IMG/VR virus record: IMGVR_UViG_3300031857_001617
Coordinates: 1-21,472 of that record
Strand: one strand, 5' to 3'
Source: a virus
Length of the DNA: 21,472 bases
The notes under the pieces were generated by a model, which did not search any database, had not been told where the DNA came from, and saw only the letters and a list, made by a program, of their open reading frames with translations. This document shows, piece by piece, positions 479-21,288 of this stretch (positions within the stretch are counted from its first letter, which is position 1; each line of letters starts with the position of its first letter). The translations under genes were made by a program, and so were the position numbers.

Positions 479-845
479 AGTTCAGATTGAGGAAGCCGAC
501 GAGTTTGATCTTCTTAGATGTGTTAGCAAACTCTGTGGTAGTAGGCATCCATCGCTCTTCCCACGCCGGCTGTGGTACACGCGATAGGTCAAACGCAAAG
601 ACTCCGTTAGGTGTCGAGTTGATATACCAAGGGTCAAGGACTCGGAAACCTGCCTCGTCCACAAGACGGACATACTTGGACTGCTCAATGAGTAGGTCTG
701 GGTAGTGTGTGTGACGACACTTGAGTTCGATGTAGAACTTCTTGTCGTCGGAGATGCAGTCGAAACTGTCGTACATTCCCTCTGACTTGTATAGGTCAGG
801 AAAGTGTTTCTTCTTGAGGTACTCAAAGAGATCGGCCTCCTTCAT
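462..845 (-). CDS. Putative PD-(D/E)XK nuclease-like phage protein
   Basis: A 127-residue protein. Residues 25-43 read YDSFDCIS...FYIELKCR, giving D29 and E40-x-K42, the acidic pair plus lysine spacing of the PD-(D/E)XK nuclease core, with predicted beta strands around both. I start it at ATG 845 because this overlaps the upstream sigma-like gene's TGA as ATGA; a TTG at 851 would add two residues. It sits near the end of the replication operon with other nucleases. Function is inferred from the motif and fold pattern only; it could be a Holliday-junction-resolvase or restriction-like enzyme, or an inactive relative. Confidence 0.6.
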   Translation of the reverse strand: MKEADLFEYLKKKHFPDLYKSEGMYDSFDCISDDKKFYIELKCRHTHYPDLLIEQSKYVRLVDEAGFRVLDPWYINSTPNGVFAFDLSRVPQPAWEERWMPTTTEFANTSKKIKLVGFLNLNYALPL

Positions 846-1474
846 TGCCAAGGACTTTCACCGCCGAGGTTTGCAACTACCTTGCGGAGCGCATTGAGGA
901 TGCGCCGGTCAGCAGTGGAGATGGCACAGCCAAGGTAGGTTGCAATCATCTCTAGTGTGTAGTTCTCGTGGTATCGAAAGCGCAGTATCTCCTGCTCGTC
1001 CTTCTCTAACTTGACATAACTAGCCTTGATGTCTACCAAGATAGCGAGCAGGTTGCCACCCTCAGCAGGAGCAGAAGGTTTCTGTGGTCTGCCATCGTTG
1101 ATCATATTCTGTGCCTGCTCTAGGGCAGTGTCGTTGACTACCGAAGCAATCACATAGGGCAGGAGTTGGCTGACTGTGATGCGGTCATAATAGGACTCGT
1201 CTTGTATCTCATAGCCAGACTTGCTGGCTTTCTCCTTGCGAGCGTAGCGCTCTAGTGAGCGTTGCATCTGCCAGCCGATACGCCTCTCATTGTGCTTGCG
1301 TATCTGCTCGTCTTGCTCTTCCATCTGTTTGTTGAAGTCTCTAGCGCGAGAGGTCAGGAAGAGGTGTGCTTCCTGCATCAAGTCGGCTCGTTCAATATAC
1401 GCCCAGAACCTGCGGTGGACTGTGTGTACCACGCTAGGGATGAGGTCCTTGAGGATGGGATGTATCTCAGTCAT
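842..1474 (-). CDS. RNA polymerase sigma-factor-like protein
   Basis: A 210-residue protein with a sigma-70/ECF layout. Residues about 7-50 resemble region 2 (IERADLMQEAHLFL), which binds core polymerase and the -10 element. Residues about 152-205 resemble region 4 (EQEILRFRYHENYTLEMIATYLGC...STADRRILNALR), a helix-turn-helix for the -35 element. The linker of about 100 residues is charged and longer than in ECF factors. The start at ATG 1474 is chosen because it overlaps the upstream small gene's stop as ATGACTGA; ATG 1492 and GTG 1495 are alternatives. It could redirect host polymerase to phage late promoters. Region 2 is weaker than region 4, so a non-sigma helix-turn-helix protein is possible. 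Confidence 0.7.
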   Translation of the reverse strand: MTEIHPILKDLIPSVVHTVHRRFWAYIERADLMQEAHLFLTSRARDFNKQMEEQDEQIRKHNERRIGWQMQRSLERYARKEKASKSGYEIQDESYYDRITVSQLLPYVIASVVNDTALEQAQNMINDGRPQKPSAPAEGGNLLAILVDIKASYVKLEKDEQEILRFRYHENYTLEMIATYLGCAISTADRRILNALRKVVANLGGESPWQ

Positions 1475-1631
1475 TGACTTCTTTGCCACCATCACTACAG
1501 GTACATTGGTGCATCAGTTTTCCTTCTCGGTCTATGTAATTCCATCCGTAATGTGAAACAGTTATCTTCTTTCCATCTTCATAGATGAACTCTTCTGTAC
1601 ACGCAACAGCAGTTATATGTGTTTCAGTCAT
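1467..1631 (-). CDS. Small hypothetical protein (54 aa)
   Basis: This short frame runs from ATG 1631 to TGA 1467, filling what would otherwise be a gap in a fully packed operon. The protein starts MTETHITAVACTEEF and ends in a CTCSDGGKEVND tail; the CTC pair and C11 could bind a metal, but no family is recognised. It overlaps the upstream DUF1599-like fragment and the downstream sigma-like gene by the same eight-base string, ATGACTGA, which supports translational coupling on both sides. Composition (charged, with aromatic residues, no low complexity) looks like a genuine protein. Confidence 0.55.
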   Translation of the reverse strand: MTETHITAVACTEEFIYEDGKKITVSHYGWNYIDREGKLMHQCTCSDGGKEVND

Positions 1632-2466: not shown

Positions 2467-2858
2467 TTGTCATCCAATACCATAATCGCTATAGCGCAGT
2501 AGTTGAGTAGGTCAATGAAACTATCACGCAAAGACTCGTTAGAAGGTTGAACTCCATTGTCTAGAAGATTGTTTATCCTCGCTGTTTTGTCCCACATTCG
2601 CACTCGGAGGCCGTTGAGTGGTCCGCCTGGACTGTGAGCGATGTTCTTCGGGCCGTAATCGTGATGCTTGCGGATGAGCAGATTTCCTGCTGCATCGAGA
2701 ATAGTCCAGACGTCTCTGATGAACTCATCGTCTATGCCTTTGTGGGGATTGGACGGACTGTTATTGTTCCATCCTTGTAGTTCATCGACACTATAATCAT
2801 TCCCGTATCCATCAACAATTCTGCCACTTCCTGTAACTCCCGCTTGGTTGTCACTCAC
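2451..2858 (-). CDS. DUF1599 / nucleotide modification associated domain 1 (Nmad1) protein
   Basis: A 135-residue protein. After a variable, polar 40-residue N-terminus, residues about 45-133 match the DUF1599 pattern: a helix with KHHDYGPKNI, then GLRVRMWDKTARINNLL, then NESLRDSFIDLLNYCAIAIMVL. The family was named for its association with phage DNA-base modification genes; its reaction is not established. The E-S-L-R-D-x3-D-L helix recalls the metal-binding helix of MazG-type NTP pyrophosphatases, which is my inference. GTG 2858 overlaps the primase TGA (GTGA) and has GGAGGAG just upstream. A methyltransferase is encoded nearby on the other strand. A truncated second copy of its C-terminus lies at 1624-1767. 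Confidence 0.82.
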   Translation of the reverse strand: MSDNQAGVTGSGRIVDGYGNDYSVDELQGWNNNSPSNPHKGIDDEFIRDVWTILDAAGNLLIRKHHDYGPKNIAHSPGGPLNGLRVRMWDKTARINNLLDNGVQPSNESLRDSFIDLLNYCAIAIMVLDDKWPQE

Positions 2859-3499
2859 TTCGCTCCTCCAAATAGTTTCCGTAATTCTTCAGGCCCATTG
2901 GACAGGTAGTATTCATTGATGTCCGTATTGGGTGGTAATGTTACTATAGTCCCATTAGGTAGTTCGGATTGGACACGCCGAGCGAACTCTGCTCCTGGGT
3001 TTGTTCCATCTTCTTTCACATCGTTGTCGCCTACAACATAGACAACCTCATAGCCGGTGAATAACTTGGCAAAGTGCGGCTTCCACGCCTGCACTCCTGG
3101 GATTCCCACTGCTGGGATACCCACGATAGCCGAGAGAATCACTGCATCTAACTCACCCTCACAGATCACTGCGAAAGGTGACTGGATGAGGACATCTGAG
3201 ACATTGTAGGGATGTGCCTTCTGTCCTACCGGCTGACCATACTTCGGCTTGCCATCGTCGATGCGACGAAACTTCACCGCTACGCAATGGCCCATCGCTG
3301 TCAGGTAGGGAATGGATAGCCACCCCACATAATCTTGATGGCCCTCTGCTGGGTCAACAACTGTGCCAAGCGTCATCTGCTCGGCTACTTCCTTAGATAT
3401 ACCACGTCCTTCGAGATACGCCACGGTTGCTTCGTCGAGGCTTTGACTGTACCTCACCACCGTTTCCAGTAATGATTTCGTAAGCACGGCTGACTGCAT
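2855..3499 (-). CDS. DNA primase TOPRIM-domain protein (catalytic half of a split primase)
   Basis: A 214-residue protein. Residues 20-45 (LDEATVAYLEGRGISKEVAEQ) resemble the N-lobe of the DnaG core. Residues 109-165 form a TOPRIM fold with the catalytic glutamate E114 in CEGELDA and the DxD-type metal site D158-N-D160 in VVGDND. It would synthesise RNA primers for lagging-strand replication. It lacks the CHC2 zinc finger, which is encoded by the upstream gene in another frame; the two overlap by 107 bases, and the zinc-finger frame is +1 away. Expression may therefore be as two proteins or by frameshifting. ATG 3499 is the only good start in this frame before the conserved region. Confidence 0.88.
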   Translation of the reverse strand: MQSAVLTKSLLETVVRYSQSLDEATVAYLEGRGISKEVAEQMTLGTVVDPAEGHQDYVGWLSIPYLTAMGHCVAVKFRRIDDGKPKYGQPVGQKAHPYNVSDVLIQSPFAVICEGELDAVILSAIVGIPAVGIPGVQAWKPHFAKLFTGYEVVYVVGDNDVKEDGTNPGAEFARRVQSELPNGTIVTLPPNTDINEYYLSNGPEELRKLFGGAK

Positions 3500-3770
3500 C
3501 CTTATACCCTAACCCCTCTTTTTCCATAATCACATCTATTGCTGACCCACCTCTACCGCAGGTGTGGCAGAAGTACAGGTTGTCGTAGGTGTTGATCACC
3601 GCACTCCGTCTGGAGTCATCGTGGATACAACACTTGACACTAGCGGCTCGGCCCTGCTTGACCTCACCGCCATAGTGGGAAACGATAACTTCTATGGAGA
3701 TTGCGTTTGATGCAGACTTACCTTTTCGCCCTTTCGAACGAACCACCCTGTTCCAGTCTGATGTTGACAT
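3393..3770 (-). CDS. CHC2 zinc-finger primase protein (zinc-binding half of a split primase)
   Basis: A 125-residue protein with the DnaG-type CHC2 zinc finger: C47-x2-H50, then C68-x2-C71 in YFCHTCGRGGSAIDVIMEKEG, which is the signature of primase template recognition. It ends in a basic tail (KPRRSNRGVSRRTWYI) encoded within the start of the TOPRIM gene. ATG 3770 is preferred because GGGGGT lies just upstream; TTG 3782 and GTG 3776 are alternatives. In most phages and bacteria this domain is fused to TOPRIM; here a +1 frame difference separates them. It should act with the downstream protein at the replication fork next to the DnaB-like helicase. Confidence 0.87.
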   Translation of the reverse strand: MSTSDWNRVVRSKGRKGKSASNAISIEVIVSHYGGEVKQGRAASVKCCIHDDSRRSAVINTYDNLYFCHTCGRGGSAIDVIMEKEGLGYKDAVSRAYEIITGNGGEVQSKPRRSNRGVSRRTWYI

Positions 3771-3865
3771 TCGCACCCCCAACAGGCTCCGTGTTTATTC
3801 TTCGCTTCCTCGATCTTCTTCTGTTGATTCAGATCCCCCGCTGTCTGGCACGGTTGACAGATCAT
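3692..3865 (-). CDS. Small cysteine-rich zinc-binding protein (57 aa)
   Basis: The product begins MICQPCQTAGDLN and has C3, C6, C28, C31, C33 and H35, the last four in CWGCECQH, so a zinc site is very likely. Short proteins of this pattern are common in actinophage early operons, with no known function. The frame is open up to GTG 3916, but ATG 3865 has AGGAG seven bases upstream and starts exactly at the conserved cysteine motif. The 3' end overlaps the CHC2 gene by 79 bases. Confidence 0.65.
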   Translation of the reverse strand: MICQPCQTAGDLNQQKKIEEAKNKHGACWGCECQHQTGTGWFVRKGEKVSLHQTQSP

Positions 3866-4272: not shown

Positions 4273-4942
4273 CTAACGCCTCCTTGACCCTAAGCACATC
4301 ATTGACATAGTGCTTCTTCATATACTTCTCAAAGGACTTGCGATCCTTCTCGTAGCGCTCCTTGGAGTTAGCCTCGATATAGATGATGTCCTTCTCGGCC
4401 TTCTTGTTGTAGAAGTGCAGGTGTTCCCAGTACACGCTTGGGAAGTAGTAGTAGGAACCTAAGCCTTTACCTAACGCCTGCCAGAAGTTGTCTGCGTAGA
4501 GATGCTTCTGCTGTGGCGGAGCCATAAAGCCAAGCGCCTTGACGATGTTGGTAGTAATCATTATAGATGTGGGCAACTTGTCCTCTTGAAGCATATCGTT
4601 ACCGTAGGCGATGCCGTATCCGTGCTTGGCTAGAGTGATAGACATAGCCACATCCCAGCCATCGGTAGTCACGATATTGTCGTCACCTAAGAATGTGAAG
4701 AAGAGGTAGTCATCGACATACTTCATCGCTATCTTATTGAGCGTAGCGATCATATATTCACGTGGACCTACCTCGTACATCACACCATCAAGCCTTGGAT
4801 AGTTATGCTCATCATCCTCATCAAGGCCCAGCACAATGTCAGAGACTTTGCTGTGTTCCTTGAGATACTTGACGGCCCGCTCTGCGTTCTCAGGCCTACC
4901 TCTAGTAGGTATGATGACGAGATTACTGTTGGCGATTTGCAT
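4241..4942 (-). CDS. GT-A-type glycosyltransferase in the replication operon
   Basis: A 233-residue protein starting with a Rossmann-like strand and loop (NLVIIPTRGRPENAERAV) typical of GT2-like enzymes. LDEDDEH at about 40-46 and FLGDDNIV at about 84-91 are candidate nucleotide-sugar and metal-binding acidic motifs. The C-terminal third is rich in aromatic residues and charge. It would transfer a sugar from a nucleotide-sugar donor to an unknown acceptor. ATG 4942 is chosen because AGGGA lies nine bases upstream; the frame extends to 5008 but only through the helicase gene's 3' end. Its position between helicase and resolvase, rather than with tail genes, makes DNA or a host surface molecule a possible acceptor. 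Confidence 0.75.
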   Translation of the reverse strand: MQIANSNLVIIPTRGRPENAERAVKYLKEHSKVSDIVLGLDEDDEHNYPRLDGVMYEVGPREYMIATLNKIAMKYVDDYLFFTFLGDDNIVTTDGWDVAMSITLAKHGYGIAYGNDMLQEDKLPTSIMITTNIVKALGFMAPPQQKHLYADNFWQALGKGLGSYYYFPSVYWEHLHFYNKKAEKDIIYIEANSKERYEKDRKSFEKYMKKHYVNDVLRVKEALGVNLQQDQGN

Positions 4943-5765
4943 ACTGCGCATCCCTGAAGTACATACGGCCCTCGTCGCTAGTAACTGACCTGATCTGACA
5001 CGCTGCAAAGTTTACCGACAGAGTGGCATACTCGCTGGCATTTGCTGAGTGTTTCCCAAAGCGATTCTTTACCGCAGATATCCGCAGTGAATTGGTCAGT
5101 GGGTCATAGCCCAAGGTGCAGATAATGGCTGGCAACTGAGAGACCTTGCCGTGAATAGCACGGCGTGGTGGTGGATACTCAGGTGAGCCATACTCCGTAG
5201 CCTCAGAGACGTGGTGCAAGACCATCACACAGGCCTCAGTCTTGCGAGCCATATCGTGGAACTCAGCCATAATAGCCCGAAGGCCTGCCCACTCATTGTC
5301 CGTCTCGGCAACGACGTTCATTAGGTTATCTATCACGATCAACTGTGGCATCTCACCGTAGAGTTCAAGGTACGCCTTGATTTCTAACTCGATATCATCA
5401 AGCGTTGGTGATGAGTCGAAGACCCACTGAATGTGGTCAGCGCTCGCCATAGCCTCGTCATAGTAATTGGCAGACCGTTGCAGGTTCTGCTCCACCGTCA
5501 ACTGGGTATGCCCAGAGATAGCAGCGGCAGTGCGTAGCATTACGGTAGAGGTATCAGTATCAGCCGAGAAGAACAGGGTGGGTATGCCAGCCTTGATCGC
5601 GTAGACCAAGGCCAACATAGACTTACCTGCGTTAGGCGCGGCTGCAACCATACACACTTGACCCCGACGGAATCGGATGTCAAACCTCGTAAGATCATTC
5701 CAGACTTCAGGAAGTGGCGTTGCTTTGGTTGTTACTGTCCCCCAAGCGCGGGATAGTTTTAGCAA
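4923..5765 (-). CDS. DnaB-like replicative helicase (RecA-fold ATPase)
   Basis: A 280-residue protein with Walker A AAPNAGKS (42-49), Walker B LIVIDN (D146), and a motif-3-like VMVLHHVSE around 205. It lacks the N-terminal domain of full DnaB and is about the size of the C-terminal ATPase alone, as in many phage helicases. A SADTDT segment (about 69-74) stands where DnaB usually has a catalytic glutamate in SLEM. It would form a ring that unwinds DNA ahead of the polymerase, together with the split primase. The start is TTG 5765, supported by GGAGG six bases upstream, overlapping the WhiB gene by 59 bases. Confidence 0.87.
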   Translation of the reverse strand: MLKLSRAWGTVTTKATPLPEVWNDLTRFDIRFRRGQVCMVAAAPNAGKSMLALVYAIKAGIPTLFFSADTDTSTVMLRTAAAISGHTQLTVEQNLQRSANYYDEAMASADHIQWVFDSSPTLDDIELEIKAYLELYGEMPQLIVIDNLMNVVAETDNEWAGLRAIMAEFHDMARKTEACVMVLHHVSEATEYGSPEYPPPRRAIHGKVSQLPAIICTLGYDPLTNSLRISAVKNRFGKHSANASEYATLSVNFAACQIRSVTSDEGRMYFRDAQYANRQQ

Positions 5766-6021
5766 TGAACACCTCCACTGGAAAAGAATCTACAATTATA
5801 TTCCTTTGTCTGCGAATGATGCGACGCTGATTCTCAGTAAGACCGCCCCATATCCCAAACTTCTCGTGCTTCAAGCCCCATTCAGCACACTCAACTTGAT
5901 GCTCACACCGGAAGCAAATCTCTTTGACGGACCGCGTAGGTGTGTGACCCTTCTCAGGGAAGAACGCTTCTGGGTCAGATTGAGCGCAGAGTGGGGCCTC
6001 GAAATCTCGTGGCCCCCTCAC
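5707..6021 (-). CDS. WhiB-family Fe-S transcriptional regulator
   Basis: A 104-residue protein with the four-cysteine WhiB cluster site: C12, then C36-x2-C39-x5-C45, followed by the G-[IV]-W-G-G turn (GIWGG at 56-60) and a basic helix NQRRIIRRQR. WhiB proteins hold a 4Fe-4S cluster and bind the main sigma factor and DNA; they are nearly exclusive to Actinobacteria and their phages, so this gene sets the host range. The start is GTG 6021, three bases after the upstream gene. The C-terminal 30 residues are an atypical tail overlapping the helicase start. Phage WhiB proteins can repress host whiB genes; that is known for mycobacteriophage examples and not shown here. Confidence 0.92.
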   Translation of the reverse strand: MRGPRDFEAPLCAQSDPEAFFPEKGHTPTRSVKEICFRCEHQVECAEWGLKHEKFGIWGGLTENQRRIIRRQRNIIVDSFPVEVFIAKTIPRLGDSNNQSNATS

Positions 6022-6415: not shown

Positions 6416-7360
6416 TTATATTCCTCCAGTAATTAGTTTGATTGAAAGCCTTGCGCTTTCCTTTCCTTGCTTTGTCGGCACGAAGCCTAGTGCTTTCTCC
6501 ACTGCTTCCTTGTCGACGGTATTATTTTGTACTGTACTCCATCGAATATCAATACCCGATTGAGTCAGACCTGTAAGCCCAGCGAATACATCTCTGAGCG
6601 CTTCCTTCTTAGCCACAAGCCTTGTGATCTCCTTATCGAGTTGAAGATACTCAAGCGCTCGTAGGTCCACTTCAGGATTATCTATGGGTGGTTGTTCAGT
6701 TTTTGTACGTCCTTTTTTTAGACCAACGCATCCCATCTCCCCAGAGGCGTCGTAGTACTTGCAATAGAACTTACAGTAAGACTCATCACGCTCTGGTTCT
6801 GGTGCAACGTCAGAGGCTTTGATGGCTTCTAACCACGACAAAGCCTCTAACGCTACTTTCTCGTCGTAGGCTTCTGAGTGGACTTTGATGTCACGCTCAT
6901 CACCATCACGAGGTATGGCTACAAGATTGACTCGACTGACCTTCCCCTTGCCAGACTTCTCAATCAAGTAACCATAGACCTGTACCTGCCAGCGTTGTTG
7001 CTGGCTAGGAAAGTACGAGAGGTTCCTATATTTAGTTGTCTTCCAGTCAACCACGTCGCCCGTTTCAGGTATGAAGAGATCGACGTGTGCCTTCATCCCA
7101 CCATACTCGACGGTGGTCTCTATCAGCAAATCGTCTCGCTTGCTAAGCGCCTCTTCAATCGCTCCGTGAATCGCTGTTCCCATAATAGCGGCAAGTTTTA
7201 GTTCTTGCTCGTTGGTCTCTGGCTGGTTGTTGAGCCGATACCAAACCCTACGACGGCAACCGCCTAACTCTGACGGTCCTATCTGGACCTGAGTACTGCG
7301 TGGCCTAGAGTTCTCCTTGTCGTGCAGTGCCTGCACTAAGAACGTTTTGATGTCTTCCAT
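6416..7360 (-). CDS. Cas4/RecB-like PD-(D/E)XK exonuclease with predicted Fe-S cluster
   Basis: A 314-residue protein (start ATG 7360, with GGAGGG upstream; ATG 7378 is possible). It shows the full RecB/Cas4 nuclease motif set: GTAIHGAIE (H65), KAHVDLF (D94), VVDWKTT (D105, K107) and QVQVYGY. C35 together with C196-x3-C200-x10-C211 gives the one-plus-three cysteine arrangement that holds a 4Fe-4S cluster in Cas4 and AddB. The C-terminal 100 residues add a predicted coiled coil and a further domain. It would degrade DNA ends to make single strands for recombination or genome replication. Cas4-like phage enzymes also occur without CRISPR; none is seen here. Confidence 0.88.
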   Translation of the reverse strand: MEDIKTFLVQALHDKENSRPRSTQVQIGPSELGGCRRRVWYRLNNQPETNEQELKLAAIMGTAIHGAIEEALSKRDDLLIETTVEYGGMKAHVDLFIPETGDVVDWKTTKYRNLSYFPSQQQRWQVQVYGYLIEKSGKGKVSRVNLVAIPRDGDERDIKVHSEAYDEKVALEALSWLEAIKASDVAPEPERDESYCKFYCKYYDASGEMGCVGLKKGRTKTEQPPIDNPEVDLRALEYLQLDKEITRLVAKKEALRDVFAGLTGLTQSGIDIRWSTVQNNTVDKEAVEKALGFVPTKQGKESARLSIKLITGGI

Positions 7361-7545
7361 ACTGCGTCTTCCCTCCATCGGGTAATTGTAATGTTGAAGA
7401 ATATAAAGTTCAAGGCTAGTGAGTCAGCCAATACGATGTAGCCATAGTCATCAAGTTCTTGGTATCTATCAAAACCAAGACCAAAGTTACGTAGGCTCGA
7501 CCTATTGATGTAGACGGTATATGGGTCCCTGTGCCAACCTGCCAT
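7336..7545 (-). CDS. Small hypothetical protein (69 aa)
   Basis: The product starts MAGWHRDPYTVYINRSS and is rich in aromatic residues, with a hydrophobic stretch (YIVLADSLALNFIFFNI) too broken by polar residues to be a clear membrane segment. ATG 7545 has AGGA seven bases upstream, and this codon lies just beside the HslV-like gene's TGA. It overlaps the exonuclease start by 25 bases. No family is recognised. Being immediately downstream of the protease gene, it is a candidate partner or adaptor, by position only. Confidence 0.6.
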   Translation of the reverse strand: MAGWHRDPYTVYINRSSLRNFGLGFDRYQELDDYGYIVLADSLALNFIFFNITITRWREDAVWKTSKRS

Positions 7546-7546
7546 A

Positions 7547-8116
7547 TCAATTCCTCTCCTGTACCACCAACTGTAAGGGCAGGCTTGTATTGACGTCAAG
7601 CACCGACGCGATTTCAATGGCGCGTTTCGCTATTTGCTCAGCCCGCGTGAAGGGTATGGCTCTGTCTTTGACCTGTGAGTAGAGGTAGCCCAGCGCGAAC
7701 TGCCCACCGGAGCCAATCGCGTAGGCTCCGTACTGAGACTGGAAGAACGATAGGTCACAGGCGATATGAAAGAGGTTGCCGTTGAAGGCCAATAGGTAAT
7801 CGAACCCAGAGTCCTTGTCCTTGAGTGCCTCGTTGTAGTCGTAGTTATGTTCCCTGAAAGTGTTGACTATGGAAGGAATGACCTTCCTGCCCATAAAGAT
7901 CACTGGATCATCACCATACTTTGGAGCAGGCGGTCTCCAGTTATAGGCCAAGATATCTCCAGGGCGTGTATCGCCCGTGATACCCAATAGATACTTGCCC
8001 ACCGCTACAATCTTGGGCGTGGACAATGCAATGGAGCGGAGATTATCTTCGGTAATCTGGCTATCAGCAGCCAGCGCTACACCTGTCGCTGTCTGTATCC
8101 CTACCAATGTGGTCAT
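7547..8116 (-). CDS. HslV-like / proteasome-beta-type Ntn protease
   Basis: The 189-residue product starts M-TTLVGIQT, matching the HslV start MTTIVSV; removing Met would expose Thr1, the catalytic nucleophile. D17 in LAADSQIT and a lysine at 34 in TPKI match the catalytic D17 and K33 within one residue. GITGDT and YAIGSGGQFA correspond to HslV's AGFAG and AIGSGG loops, and EQIAKRAIEIAS matches the following helix. Length (188 mature) is close to E. coli HslV (175). HslV forms a double ring that degrades proteins fed by the HslU ATPase; no HslU is in the window. GTG 8122 is better placed for the ribosome site AAGGTGG but would add Met-Pro before Met-Thr. It is the first gene of the early operon. 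Confidence 0.85.
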   Translation of the reverse strand: MTTLVGIQTATGVALAADSQITEDNLRSIALSTPKIVAVGKYLLGITGDTRPGDILAYNWRPPAPKYGDDPVIFMGRKVIPSIVNTFREHNYDYNEALKDKDSGFDYLLAFNGNLFHIACDLSFFQSQYGAYAIGSGGQFALGYLYSQVKDRAIPFTRAEQIAKRAIEIASVLDVNTSLPLQLVVQERN

Positions 8117-8144
8117 AGGCACATAATTTACACCACCTTACGGC

Positions 8145-8162
8145 GTGTCGCGCCAGCGACAC
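8145..8162. other. Perfect 7-bp hairpin, possible operator or attenuator
   Basis: GTGTCGC (8145-8151) and GCGACAC (8156-8162) flank a four-base loop. The element lies between the AT-rich core and the HslV-like start on the minus strand, so it would be in the leader of the early operon transcript, and it overlaps the possible -35 box of the plus-strand promoter. It is therefore placed to act as a protein-binding site or as an RNA stem. There is no T-tract, so it is not a simple terminator. Confidence 0.5.
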
Positions 8163-8281: not shown

Positions 8282-8512
8282 ATGTGGTTCCGTCTACTCC
8301 GGCTGCTGAAAAACAAAGACAGCCTACCACCCGTTCACGGCGCCGACCTACGAGACCTTGGTCCAGTCCACGTCTGCTCGTGTGGCTGTGAAGTATTCAA
8401 TGTGATGGCCTGCTTCGAAGACTATGAACTCGTCTGGTATTTCCTTGATGCCACCTGTGCATCCTGTGGCAACCTCGTCACGGTTCCCTGCCCAGTAGAC
8501 AAACAGGTTTAG
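8282..8512 (+). CDS. Small zinc-ribbon protein, lone rightward gene (76 aa)
   Basis: The protein has a basic N-terminus (MWFRLLRLLKNKD), a GADLRDLGPVHVC segment and two knuckles: C32-S-C34-G-C36 and C59-A-S-C62. Between them, FEDYELVWYFLDATC looks like two beta strands. This pattern resembles a conserved small actinophage protein of unknown function. A purine-rich AGGAAGGAG precedes the ATG by about 12 bases, a little far for a ribosome site; GTG 8272 closer to it is in another frame and runs into a proline/arginine-rich, unconvincing product. It is the only complete plus-strand gene, transcribed away from the early operon and towards the late one, so it probably has its own regulation. Confidence 0.8.
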   Translation: MWFRLLRLLKNKDSLPPVHGADLRDLGPVHVCSCGCEVFNVMACFEDYELVWYFLDATCASCGNLVTVPCPVDKQV

Positions 8513-15982: not shown

Positions 15983-17353
15983 TTACTTTGCATATCTAAC
16001 TATTACGATTCCAGAACCGCCCGCTCCGCCTGATGCAACATTGTAGCCAGAGCCACCACCGCCGCCGCCTGTATTAGCCGTACCAGCGACTCCGGTTCCG
16101 CTATTTGCAACCAAAGAACCTGCACCACCACCGCCGAGTCCACCAACTCCAGCGTATGCTCCGTTCCCGCCTCCGACAGTAGAGCCACCTCCACCACCGC
16201 CAGCATAATATCCGCTATTAGCGCCAGTACTAGTTGCTGATGACCAAGTTGATAGCAAAACGCCAACGCCGCCATCGGTGGCTGTTCCATTTGGACTGCT
16301 TGCGGCATTTGCAGCCGCTGCTCCAGCACCACCACCGCCAGGAGAACCACTATTGCTACCATTTCCTGCTCCGCCGTTGTATCCCTGATTGGCGGTGCCA
16401 GTTCCTGCATTTAGCCAAACTCCAGAACCGTTGCCAGAGCCAGCGCCACCGCCAGAACCTCCGCTACCACCTCCAGAGTTTGACTCGTAACTTCCACCAC
16501 GACCTCCGCCAGTAGAAGTTATGGTGTTGAACACAGAACTACTCCCTTGAGTTTGTGAGGCTCCTCCAGCGCCGACGGTTACGGTATAAGCGGTGCTTGC
16601 GGTAAGAGATAGAGCAGATTCAAGAGAACCTCCGCCGCCTGTTGCTCCTACGGTGGAACGAAGTCCACCTGCTCCGCCTCCACCGCCGTACCATCCACCA
16701 CCACCGCCACCACCTGCTACCACGAGGTAATCACAGGATAGGTTCTGCAACGGCGTAAAAGTACCGCTAGTTGTAAAGAGATGGTAGACATAACTGGCAT
16801 CGTCATACACCATTCCACCAGTCGCCTTGATCTGGGCAGTCGTGCGGGAGATGCCATACAAGGTGGCTGTGGAGTGTTGAGAGAGTGTTCCGCTTCCAGC
16901 CGCAATTCTAATAGAAGTGATTGCTGCAGTGTTTGACCACAAAAAAGCGTATAACTGGGTGAACGCAGTAGTAGCATTGTTTTCGGTAACAGCATCATAT
17001 GATGCGCTTTTGTTATTGCTCCCTGCATAGTTGGGGATGTATAACTGCCCATTGCCAAAAGTAGAGGCTGTTGCATTTGCGCCTACTCCGTCAGCAAAAA
17101 AATGATTACCAGAAAGAGAGTTAGAAACGGCTGTTGAACCATCGCCGTAAAGATTTCTCTGACTGTAACCTGTAGTTGAGCCATTGAAGGTTATTTGCAA
17201 CTGTTGAAAAACTTGTGCTTGTGTTCCTCTAATAGAGAATACAACCTGCAAGTCGGTATAGGTCTGCGGGATATTGGTGAACTCTATATTCGCAGCACCA
17301 CCACTACCCACAGTGACGGTCTGAATTGCAACCATTGTGCCATTGAGTGCCAT
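15983..17353 (-). CDS. Tail-fibre adhesin with beta module and poly-glycine domain
   Basis: A 456-residue protein. Residues about 20-170 are a beta-rich module (IEFTNIPQTYTDLQVVF... WSNTAAITSIRIAAGSG...LYGIS) also present in the next two upstream genes. After a short linker (YHLFTTSGTFTPLQNLSCDYLVVAGGG), residues 207-456 are extremely glycine-rich, with runs of seven G and a closing GGSGIVIVRYAK. That ending is typical of phage glycine-rich tail domains, which in T-even-like phages form poly-glycine II sandwiches that carry receptor-binding loops. ATG 17353 overlaps the TAA of the upstream paralogue (TAATG). Probable receptor-binding protein. Confidence 0.82.
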   Translation of the reverse strand: MALNGTMVAIQTVTVGSGGAANIEFTNIPQTYTDLQVVFSIRGTQAQVFQQLQITFNGSTTGYSQRNLYGDGSTAVSNSLSGNHFFADGVGANATASTFGNGQLYIPNYAGSNNKSASYDAVTENNATTAFTQLYAFLWSNTAAITSIRIAAGSGTLSQHSTATLYGISRTTAQIKATGGMVYDDASYVYHLFTTSGTFTPLQNLSCDYLVVAGGGGGGGWYGGGGGAGGLRSTVGATGGGGSLESALSLTASTAYTVTVGAGGASQTQGSSSVFNTITSTGGGRGGSYESNSGGGSGGSGGGAGSGNGSGVWLNAGTGTANQGYNGGAGNGSNSGSPGGGGAGAAAANAASSPNGTATDGGVGVLLSTWSSATSTGANSGYYAGGGGGGSTVGGGNGAYAGVGGLGGGGAGSLVANSGTGVAGTANTGGGGGGSGYNVASGGAGGSGIVIVRYAK

Positions 17354-18603
17354 TAGACTGCATACCTCACAATCACAGTTCCTGAACCGCCTGCACCTGC
17401 TGTTGACCTGCCACCGTTGCCACCATTACCAGTGTTCGCAGTTCCAGCACCGCCCGAATCTGATCCGTTACCACCAACTGCACGAGTTACGGATGTGCCT
17501 GTGATGGTGCTTGTAAGACCTGAGCCTCCTGTTTGTGTGACATAACTGGAACCTGCTGCACCAGCACCGCCACCACCGCCCATATTGCGGGAGTTGCCTT
17601 GTGCTCCTATTCCTGAACCACCGGCAAACCCTTCGTTCGCTGTTCCTGCTCCGCCAGCATAAGCATTATTGAAATCACCAGAACCACCACCAGAACCACC
17701 AGCGCGACCCTGACCTGTTGGCGATGCGTTGACAGCGCCACCACCGCCTCCTCCTGTAGTGGATACAGTAAAGAAGGAACTAGCACTTCCGTTTGTTCCT
17801 AGTGTGTAGTCAGATGCTGCACCGCTACCGCCACCGCCAACGACTATTGCGTAATTGGTGCCATTGATGAGTGAGAGTTTTGACTGCGCCGACGCGCCAC
17901 CACCTGATGCTCCAACAGATGTTCTATAACCACCTGCTCCACCGCCACCACCGTTGTTATTGACATCGCCACGACCTCCACCACCTCCACCTGCGACAAC
18001 AAGAAAATCGACATCAGTAAGGTTTTCCACTGGTGCAAAGATGCCAGAGGATCGGTAGGTGTGATACCAGTAGGTTCCATCTGTGCGTACTTCATCCCCA
18101 CCAAATGCCTTCGGTGAGCCAGCGCCGATGCCGTAGAGAGTGAAGGTGGAACCTGAAAGCCAACTTGCTGTTTCAGGATAAAGCCTAATTGATGTGATTG
18201 CCGCAGTATTTCTCCACAAGCCGACTGATGCCCAAACGGAATTAGCGGCGGCATTAGTTCTAGCCAAAACAGTTTTGTTCGTCGTTACATTTGAGTAGTT
18301 TTCAAACTGTAATATAAAATTTCCGTTTAGATTATTGAGAGCAGGAGCGCCCAAATACATTGCCGGATTGTTTGTATATCTTCCAGAACTAGCACTACTT
18401 CCATTTCCAAAAATATGTGTAGCGGAGTAACTGTTACTGCTATCTCCGTTTAGTTCTACCGATAAAGCGAATCCTGTCGTGGTATTCATACCACCATTCA
18501 TTACTAAAACTAAGTCGGTGTAAGTTTGTGGGATACCACTAAAGGTAATAGAAGCAGTGTTAGCGGAAAGCGTCTGGGTGCTTATCGGTGTGAGTGTTGA
18601 CAT
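17353..18603 (-). CDS. Paralogous tail-fibre adhesin with poly-glycine domain
   Basis: A 416-residue protein of the same architecture as the gene downstream: beta module at about 15-160 (ITFSGIPQTYTDLVLVM ... LWRNTAAITSIRL ... FTLYGIG) and a glycine-rich region at 198-416 beginning DFLVVAGGGGGG and ending GGSGTVIVRYAV. The modules are clearly related but the glycine-rich loops differ, as expected for diversified adhesins after tandem duplication. TAAATG links it directly to the previous gene. It probably binds the host surface, possibly a different receptor from its neighbour. Confidence 0.82.
   Translation of the reverse strand: MSTLTPISTQTLSANTASITFSGIPQTYTDLVLVMNGGMNTTTGFALSVELNGDSSNSYSATHIFGNGSSASSGRYTNNPAMYLGAPALNNLNGNFILQFENYSNVTTNKTVLARTNAAANSVWASVGLWRNTAAITSIRLYPETASWLSGSTFTLYGIGAGSPKAFGGDEVRTDGTYWYHTYRSSGIFAPVENLTDVDFLVVAGGGGGGRGDVNNNGGGGGAGGYRTSVGASGGGASAQSKLSLINGTNYAIVVGGGGSGAASDYTLGTNGSASSFFTVSTTGGGGGGAVNASPTGQGRAGGSGGGSGDFNNAYAGGAGTANEGFAGGSGIGAQGNSRNMGGGGGAGAAGSSYVTQTGGSGLTSTITGTSVTRAVGGNGSDSGGAGTANTGNGGNGGRSTAGAGGSGTVIVRYAV

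Positions 18604-20043: not shown

Positions 20044-21288
<1,245 letters not shown>

Follow-up and report, generated by a model that had tools for sequence, protein, structure and literature searches.

A proteasome-like N-terminal-nucleophile hydrolase is a single-copy core gene of a freshwater actinophage family and occupies one of two genome positions

We analyzed a viral contig of 21,472 bases (hereafter, the window), which contains an open reading frame (ORF) that almost certainly encodes a proteasome-like (T1-type, "group I") N-terminal-nucleophile (Ntn) hydrolase, surrounded by the genes and features listed in Table 1. The initial annotation had given this ORF the span 7547-8122. The ORF is real and lies on the minus strand, but its upper end had been misplaced: relatives with 95% identity read GCA-CCT-ATG, keeping the ATG and not the GTG at 8122 (followed by CCT in the window), so we assigned the start to the ATG at 8116. 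The N terminus of the protein is Met-Thr-Thr-Leu, and residues are numbered here from the Thr that follows the Met (Thr1).

Table 1. Genes and sequence features of the window
Feature	Coordinates	Strand	Remarks
Sigma-70-like factor	842..1495	minus	profile matches
Split DNA primase	2855..3782	minus	zinc-finger part 3393-3782, Toprim part 2855-3499
DnaB-like helicase domain	4923..5765	minus	profile matches
WhiB-like regulator	5707..6021	minus	actinophage marker
Cas4/RecB-like exonuclease	6416..7378	minus	next conserved operon gene; profile matches
69-aa ORF	7336..7545	minus	after the Ntn gene
Proteasome-like Ntn hydrolase gene	7547..8116	minus	189 aa, ATG start, M-Thr-Thr
TANNNT box (-10 type)	8125..8130	minus	9-14 nt before the Ntn ATG
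Inverted repeat GTGTCGC-GCCA-GCGACAC	8145..8162		in the gap that separates the Ntn gene from the divergent cysteine-rich gene
Cysteine-rich protein	8282..8512	plus	76 aa, zinc-ribbon-like by eye; divergent from the Ntn gene
Two glycine-rich tail-region proteins	15983-18603		
Collagen-like Gly-Pro-Thr repeat protein	20044-20958	minus	

The cysteine-rich gene adjoins the Ntn gene in 132/132 relatives of the window's branch; family searches with its product gave no match, and the gene is absent from LanE43AprE7 (E7) and F5, two cultured phages that lyse "Ca. Planktophila" (PMC10202952). On the other side, the Cas4-like nuclease lies downstream of the Ntn gene in 115 of 126 relatives of this branch. 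A homolog of the 69-aa ORF was detectable behind the Ntn gene in only 32 of 139 relatives, which leaves unsupported the earlier suggestion that this small gene may encode an adaptor; it is no conserved one. The expectation that the Ntn gene comes first in its operon was borne out by the 139 relatives of the branch and by 82 upstream sequences, which point to a promoter of its own at the start of the replication-side operon.

In these 82 unique upstream sequences from the window's branch, a TANNNT box was found at positions -14 to -10 in 70 cases, mostly at -12 or -13; 48 of the 82 have it at -12, against an average of about 2.6 per position. The 70 sequences that bear the box all start with ATG or GTG and lack a Shine-Dalgarno sequence; in the ten that start with ATT or ATC, the box is missing and a Shine-Dalgarno sequence is present; the other two (ATG start) have neither. 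At the sequence level, this distribution strongly indicates that the Ntn gene of the window's branch has a promoter of its own, which is leaderless in most cases. The ATT/ATC-start sub-branch includes L015, L016, L018, L019, L023, L027, L028, L030, L034, L036, L039, L040, L045, and L074, and 10 of 17 Ntn loci with such a start have no in-frame upstream ATG, GTG, or TTG. The inverted repeat is exact (GTGTCG...CGACAC) in 61 of the 82 sequences, occurs in one copy per genome, and is a probable operator. The spacing of its half-sites ranges from 5 to 9 nt, which is odd for a simple operator. We rejected the repeat as a genome-wide regulator site, as it is present once per genome, with one unrelated exact match in one genome.

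We then analyzed the sequence of the Ntn protein. Thr1, Asp17, and Lys34 were invariant in an alignment of 83 non-redundant sequences with identities down to ∼21%, so that the loss of these positions among homologs, named at the outset as grounds for dismissing the assignment, was not seen. In the same alignment, Gly47 (oxyanion) was conserved in at least 90% of the sequences, and Arg50 and the GxGG loop were nearly invariant. All the elements first noted in the window protein are present, namely the Thr-Thr N terminus, D17, a lysine at 34, the GSGG loop, and a helix (EQIAKRAIEIA), and the one-residue insertion before the lysine was also seen, with Lys34 corresponding to K33 of the proteasome and HslV. 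A dN/dS of ∼0.08 to 0.17 between relatives indicates purifying selection on the gene.

The protein matches the Pfam Proteasome family (PF00227; E = 1.8e-8, 34.7 bits versus a gathering cutoff of 22.4) and PHROG 1040, "peptidase HslV family" (E = 1e-22), and a PDB sequence search placed BPH and HslV at the top. An AlphaFold2 model computed on a deep alignment (pLDDT 90.0, pTM 0.87) has the expected order of strands and helices and the alpha-beta-beta-alpha fold, with Z scores of ∼20 to BPH, 20S beta subunits, and HslV; a model on an alignment of 19 close relatives only reached a pLDDT of 51 and was discarded. BPH ranked first in both Foldseek (2.3e-12) and VIA-align (5ovt, Z 20.5; 5ovs, Z 20.1; 173 residues, rmsd 2.8), in a tie within 1 Z unit with 20S beta subunits and HslV (Z ∼19.5 to 20). 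Residue 2 of the model, which is Thr1, superposes on residue 1 of the solved BPH chain. Among viral predicted structures, 39 match the model at an E value of 0.001 or below, several of them already named HslV or proteasome. The fold, with its superposition on HslV (Z ∼19.5), and the family matches uphold the initial assignment to the proteasome-family Ntn threonine hydrolases. The narrower reading as HslV sensu stricto failed: the protein scored 26.3 bits against a cutoff of 157.75 for the HslV equivalog TIGR03692 and 29.3 against 137 for PRK05456, and its nearest solved structure is BPH. With 32.2 bits against 224 for the 20S/archaeal beta equivalog TIGR03634 as well, scores are about fivefold or more under the cutoffs, which rules out HslV proper as well as a 20S beta subunit.

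The window protein shares with HslV (ClpQ) the Thr-Thr start, D17, the K33 equivalent, the GSGG loop, and a similar length; it differs in its equivalog score, in the extra residue before the lysine, and in having no HslU. BPH resembles it over the full length, is likewise a group I protein, and has no unfoldase, but it comes from cells, is known to form a double ring of heptamers, and has only 23 to 27% identity to the window protein. The PHROG 1040 member of the Actinomycetia phage DSL-LC01, an "ATP-dependent protease subunit" so annotated by similarity only, has 34% identity to the window protein; it is followed by whiB, and its context and position differ from those in the window.

Close relatives of the Ntn protein are encoded on at least 589 IMG/VR stretches, and a second branch is found on at least 199. 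E7 and F5 carry a homolog (OX376640/OX376641) with 31% identity to the window protein and a shortened H3-H4 region, a feature of their branch, which is sister to the window's. These phages share terL, portal, and capsid genes with the window's phage, their WhiB, sigma factor, split primase, and helicase genes match those of the window, and ∼15 window genes have F5 homologs with 30 to 64% identity. The main text of the report on E7 and F5 leaves the Ntn gene unnamed and mentions genes for degrading host proteins (PMC10202952).

To avoid selection on the Ntn gene, contigs for a core-gene test were picked by terminase. The gene was single-copy in 22/22 terminase-selected records of 33 kb or more: exactly one copy was present in 15/15 records of at least 34 kb in the E7/F5-type set and in 7/7 records of at least 33 kb in the window-type set, in the latter away from the portal gene. 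The Ntn gene is a single-copy core gene in this ∼40-kb freshwater actinophage family, with two alternative locations. In the E7/F5-type terminase set, it lies directly behind the portal gene in 43 of the 48 loci with room and, allowing for ORF overlap, in a 44th (L313); the remaining exceptions (L295, L296, L305, and L317) are contig fragments that lack the early module. When E7/F5-type loci were instead gathered through the Ntn gene, the portal gene was immediately upstream in 73/74, with 13 to 18 nt from portal stop to Ntn start, and the gene order in E7, F5, and relatives is terL-portal-Ntn-...-scaffold-like-major capsid, the scaffold-like protein being a separate one. In contrast, none of the 30 window-type terminase loci has the Ntn gene behind the portal gene; window-branch (clade A) loci collected by the Ntn gene have it at the head of the replication module, and one terminase-selected locus (G038) has it between holin-like and helicase-like genes.

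In our tree, the window's branch stands beside one post-portal lineage (97/89) and inside a wider post-portal set, with weak deep branches. Since it sits within this wider set, the post-portal position is probably the older one. In the window's branch, the post-portal slot left empty by the Ntn gene contains no remnant of it that we could find; a conserved basic ORF of ∼43 aa (MKKGGREKAP...) fills the slot, e.g., in L350 (13747-13907). Between the portal and capsid genes, we also observed proteins of 1600 to 1700 aa without a Pfam match (11087-16222 in L260, which is F5, and 8226-12989 in L088).

Homologs also occur in large unrelated phages, among nucleotide-metabolism or PhoH genes and outside the head genes. 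A PhoH-like gene is adjacent to the proteasome-like gene or a few genes away in L194, L444, L446, and L447, and L446 (Aeromonas phage 2L372X) has two tandem genes annotated "peptidase HslV family." The homolog from Microbacterium phage Pumpernickel (gp135), a laboratory actinophage, gave no matches as a single-protein query in the viral scan. The only bacterial matches in the genome-contig scan were two divergent Mycobacterium loci (26 to 27% identity), and a full-length chromosomal homolog was found in 19 of 247 sampled Actinomycetes genomes, all of at least 5 Mb (E values of 1e-40 to 1e-44). These chromosomal proteins start Thr-Cys, and the tree separates them from the Thr-Thr branches of phages, although its deep nodes are weakly supported. 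Neighbors such as an aldo-keto-reductase-like gene recur among the chromosomal loci that we read, which suggests a resident gene and no prophage.

Phage-borne proteasome homologs have been described as PPH, AAH, and CPH in a survey (Fuchs, Alva & Lupas 2021, PMC8665760). That survey detected no AAA+ partners co-occurring with them, reported AAH from no phage specific to Actinobacteria, and saw no informative gene context. The proteasome-like protein type is thus already known in phages: like the window protein, these are group I proteasome-like Ntn hydrolases with Thr, Asp, and Lys and without propeptide or AAA+ partner. The difference is that here the homolog is a core gene in two fixed contexts on hundreds of actinophage contigs. 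The Actinomycetes chromosomal homologs are probably the published AAH group, and the published view that AAH is absent from Actinobacteria-specific phages should be re-examined. To our knowledge, there is no earlier description of the strict retention in single copy, of the two alternative positions, of the pattern of leaderless and ATT starts, or of the link to cultured phages.

The conserved residues and the modeled fold make it likely that the Ntn protein is an active peptidase. Host methionine aminopeptidase would remove the Met and expose Thr1, no propeptide being present, and Thr1, with Lys34 and Asp17, would cleave peptide bonds. The subunits may assemble, perhaps into a ring as in BPH or HslV, and the enzyme may accept small or unfolded proteins with no ATPase of its own, a mode of action proposed for BPH and the uncapped proteasome. 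Made in the window's branch from the start of replication-module expression, it would remove or recycle proteins of the host or the phage during infection. We favor such an unfoldase-independent peptidase because the homologs of large phages adjoin nucleotide-metabolism or PhoH genes and because the window's branch would express the protein ahead of the replication genes; that this cytoplasmic action is its main role has, in our estimate, an even chance. In the E7/F5 branch, the gene is probably expressed together with the head genes, as it lies directly behind the portal gene, and this placement in the sister phages makes an exclusively "early" role doubtful.

The same placement raises the possibility of a head-morphogenesis or virion protease, which would process the scaffold, the portal, or the ∼1700-aa virion-type protein, or would be packaged and injected, the gene of the window's branch having merely moved to another operon. 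Many phages keep their prohead protease in the slot that the E7/F5 Ntn gene occupies so closely behind the portal, and several divergent Ntn lineages share this slot, with the window's branch nested among them. We also found no Peptidase_S78, S49, or ClpP-type protease in 26 to 28 relatives. The major capsid protein, however, is of the N4-gp56 type and begins where mature HK97 capsids begin, which leaves no delta-like domain for cleavage, and phages with such a capsid often need no protease. A head role also fits poorly with the window's branch, where the gene is never beside the portal and would have its own promoter before the replication genes, and with the large phages, whose homologs are outside the head modules. 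We consider this role rather unlikely.

The peptidase could instead borrow a host AAA+ ATPase (Mpa/ARC, ClpX, or ClpC) in the manner of HslV or the 20S proteasome. Its fold is related to HslV and beta subunits, and the phages encode no recognized unfoldase: an HslU/Clp-type ATPase (AAA_2, PF07724) was found in none of 13 plus 21 relatives, most of them near 40 kb, and the sole AAA-type match in F5 is the DnaB-like helicase, which we rejected as an unfoldase. The initial remark that neither HslU nor a classical prohead protease lies nearby thus extends to tens of near-complete relatives. Given that we identified no docking feature in the Ntn sequence, that the protein falls far short of the HslV and archaeal-beta equivalog cutoffs, and that the published survey saw no AAA+ partners (PMC8665760), we regard host-ATPase borrowing as distinctly improbable. 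Least probable, in our view, is a narrow-specificity processing enzyme, a connectase-like transpeptidase/ligase, or a non-proteolytic amidohydrolase. The proteasome family does include the monomeric ligase connectase, which lacks H1/H2 and has an S3/S4 insertion (PMC8665760), and the shortened H3-H4 of the sister branch could disfavor double rings; in the window model, however, residues 50-59 and 71-89 form helices that occupy the H1/H2 position, and there is no S3/S4 insertion.

For none of the phage proteasome-like proteins catalogued so far is a role known, and actinophages were thought to lack them. Here, phages of the most abundant lake bacteria strictly keep one as a single copy. It is unlikely that this threonine protease serves head assembly or scaffold clearing, or is injected with the virion, in a major freshwater actinophage family, and that one branch has since moved its gene out of the head operon to the front of the replication operon; if so, it would fill a role that elsewhere falls to serine proteases with other folds. 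Since the gene is also present in E7/F5, which are in culture together with their host "Ca. Planktophila" LanE-43, the question of why phages carry proteasome subunits can now be answered by expression timing, virion proteomics, and enzymology.
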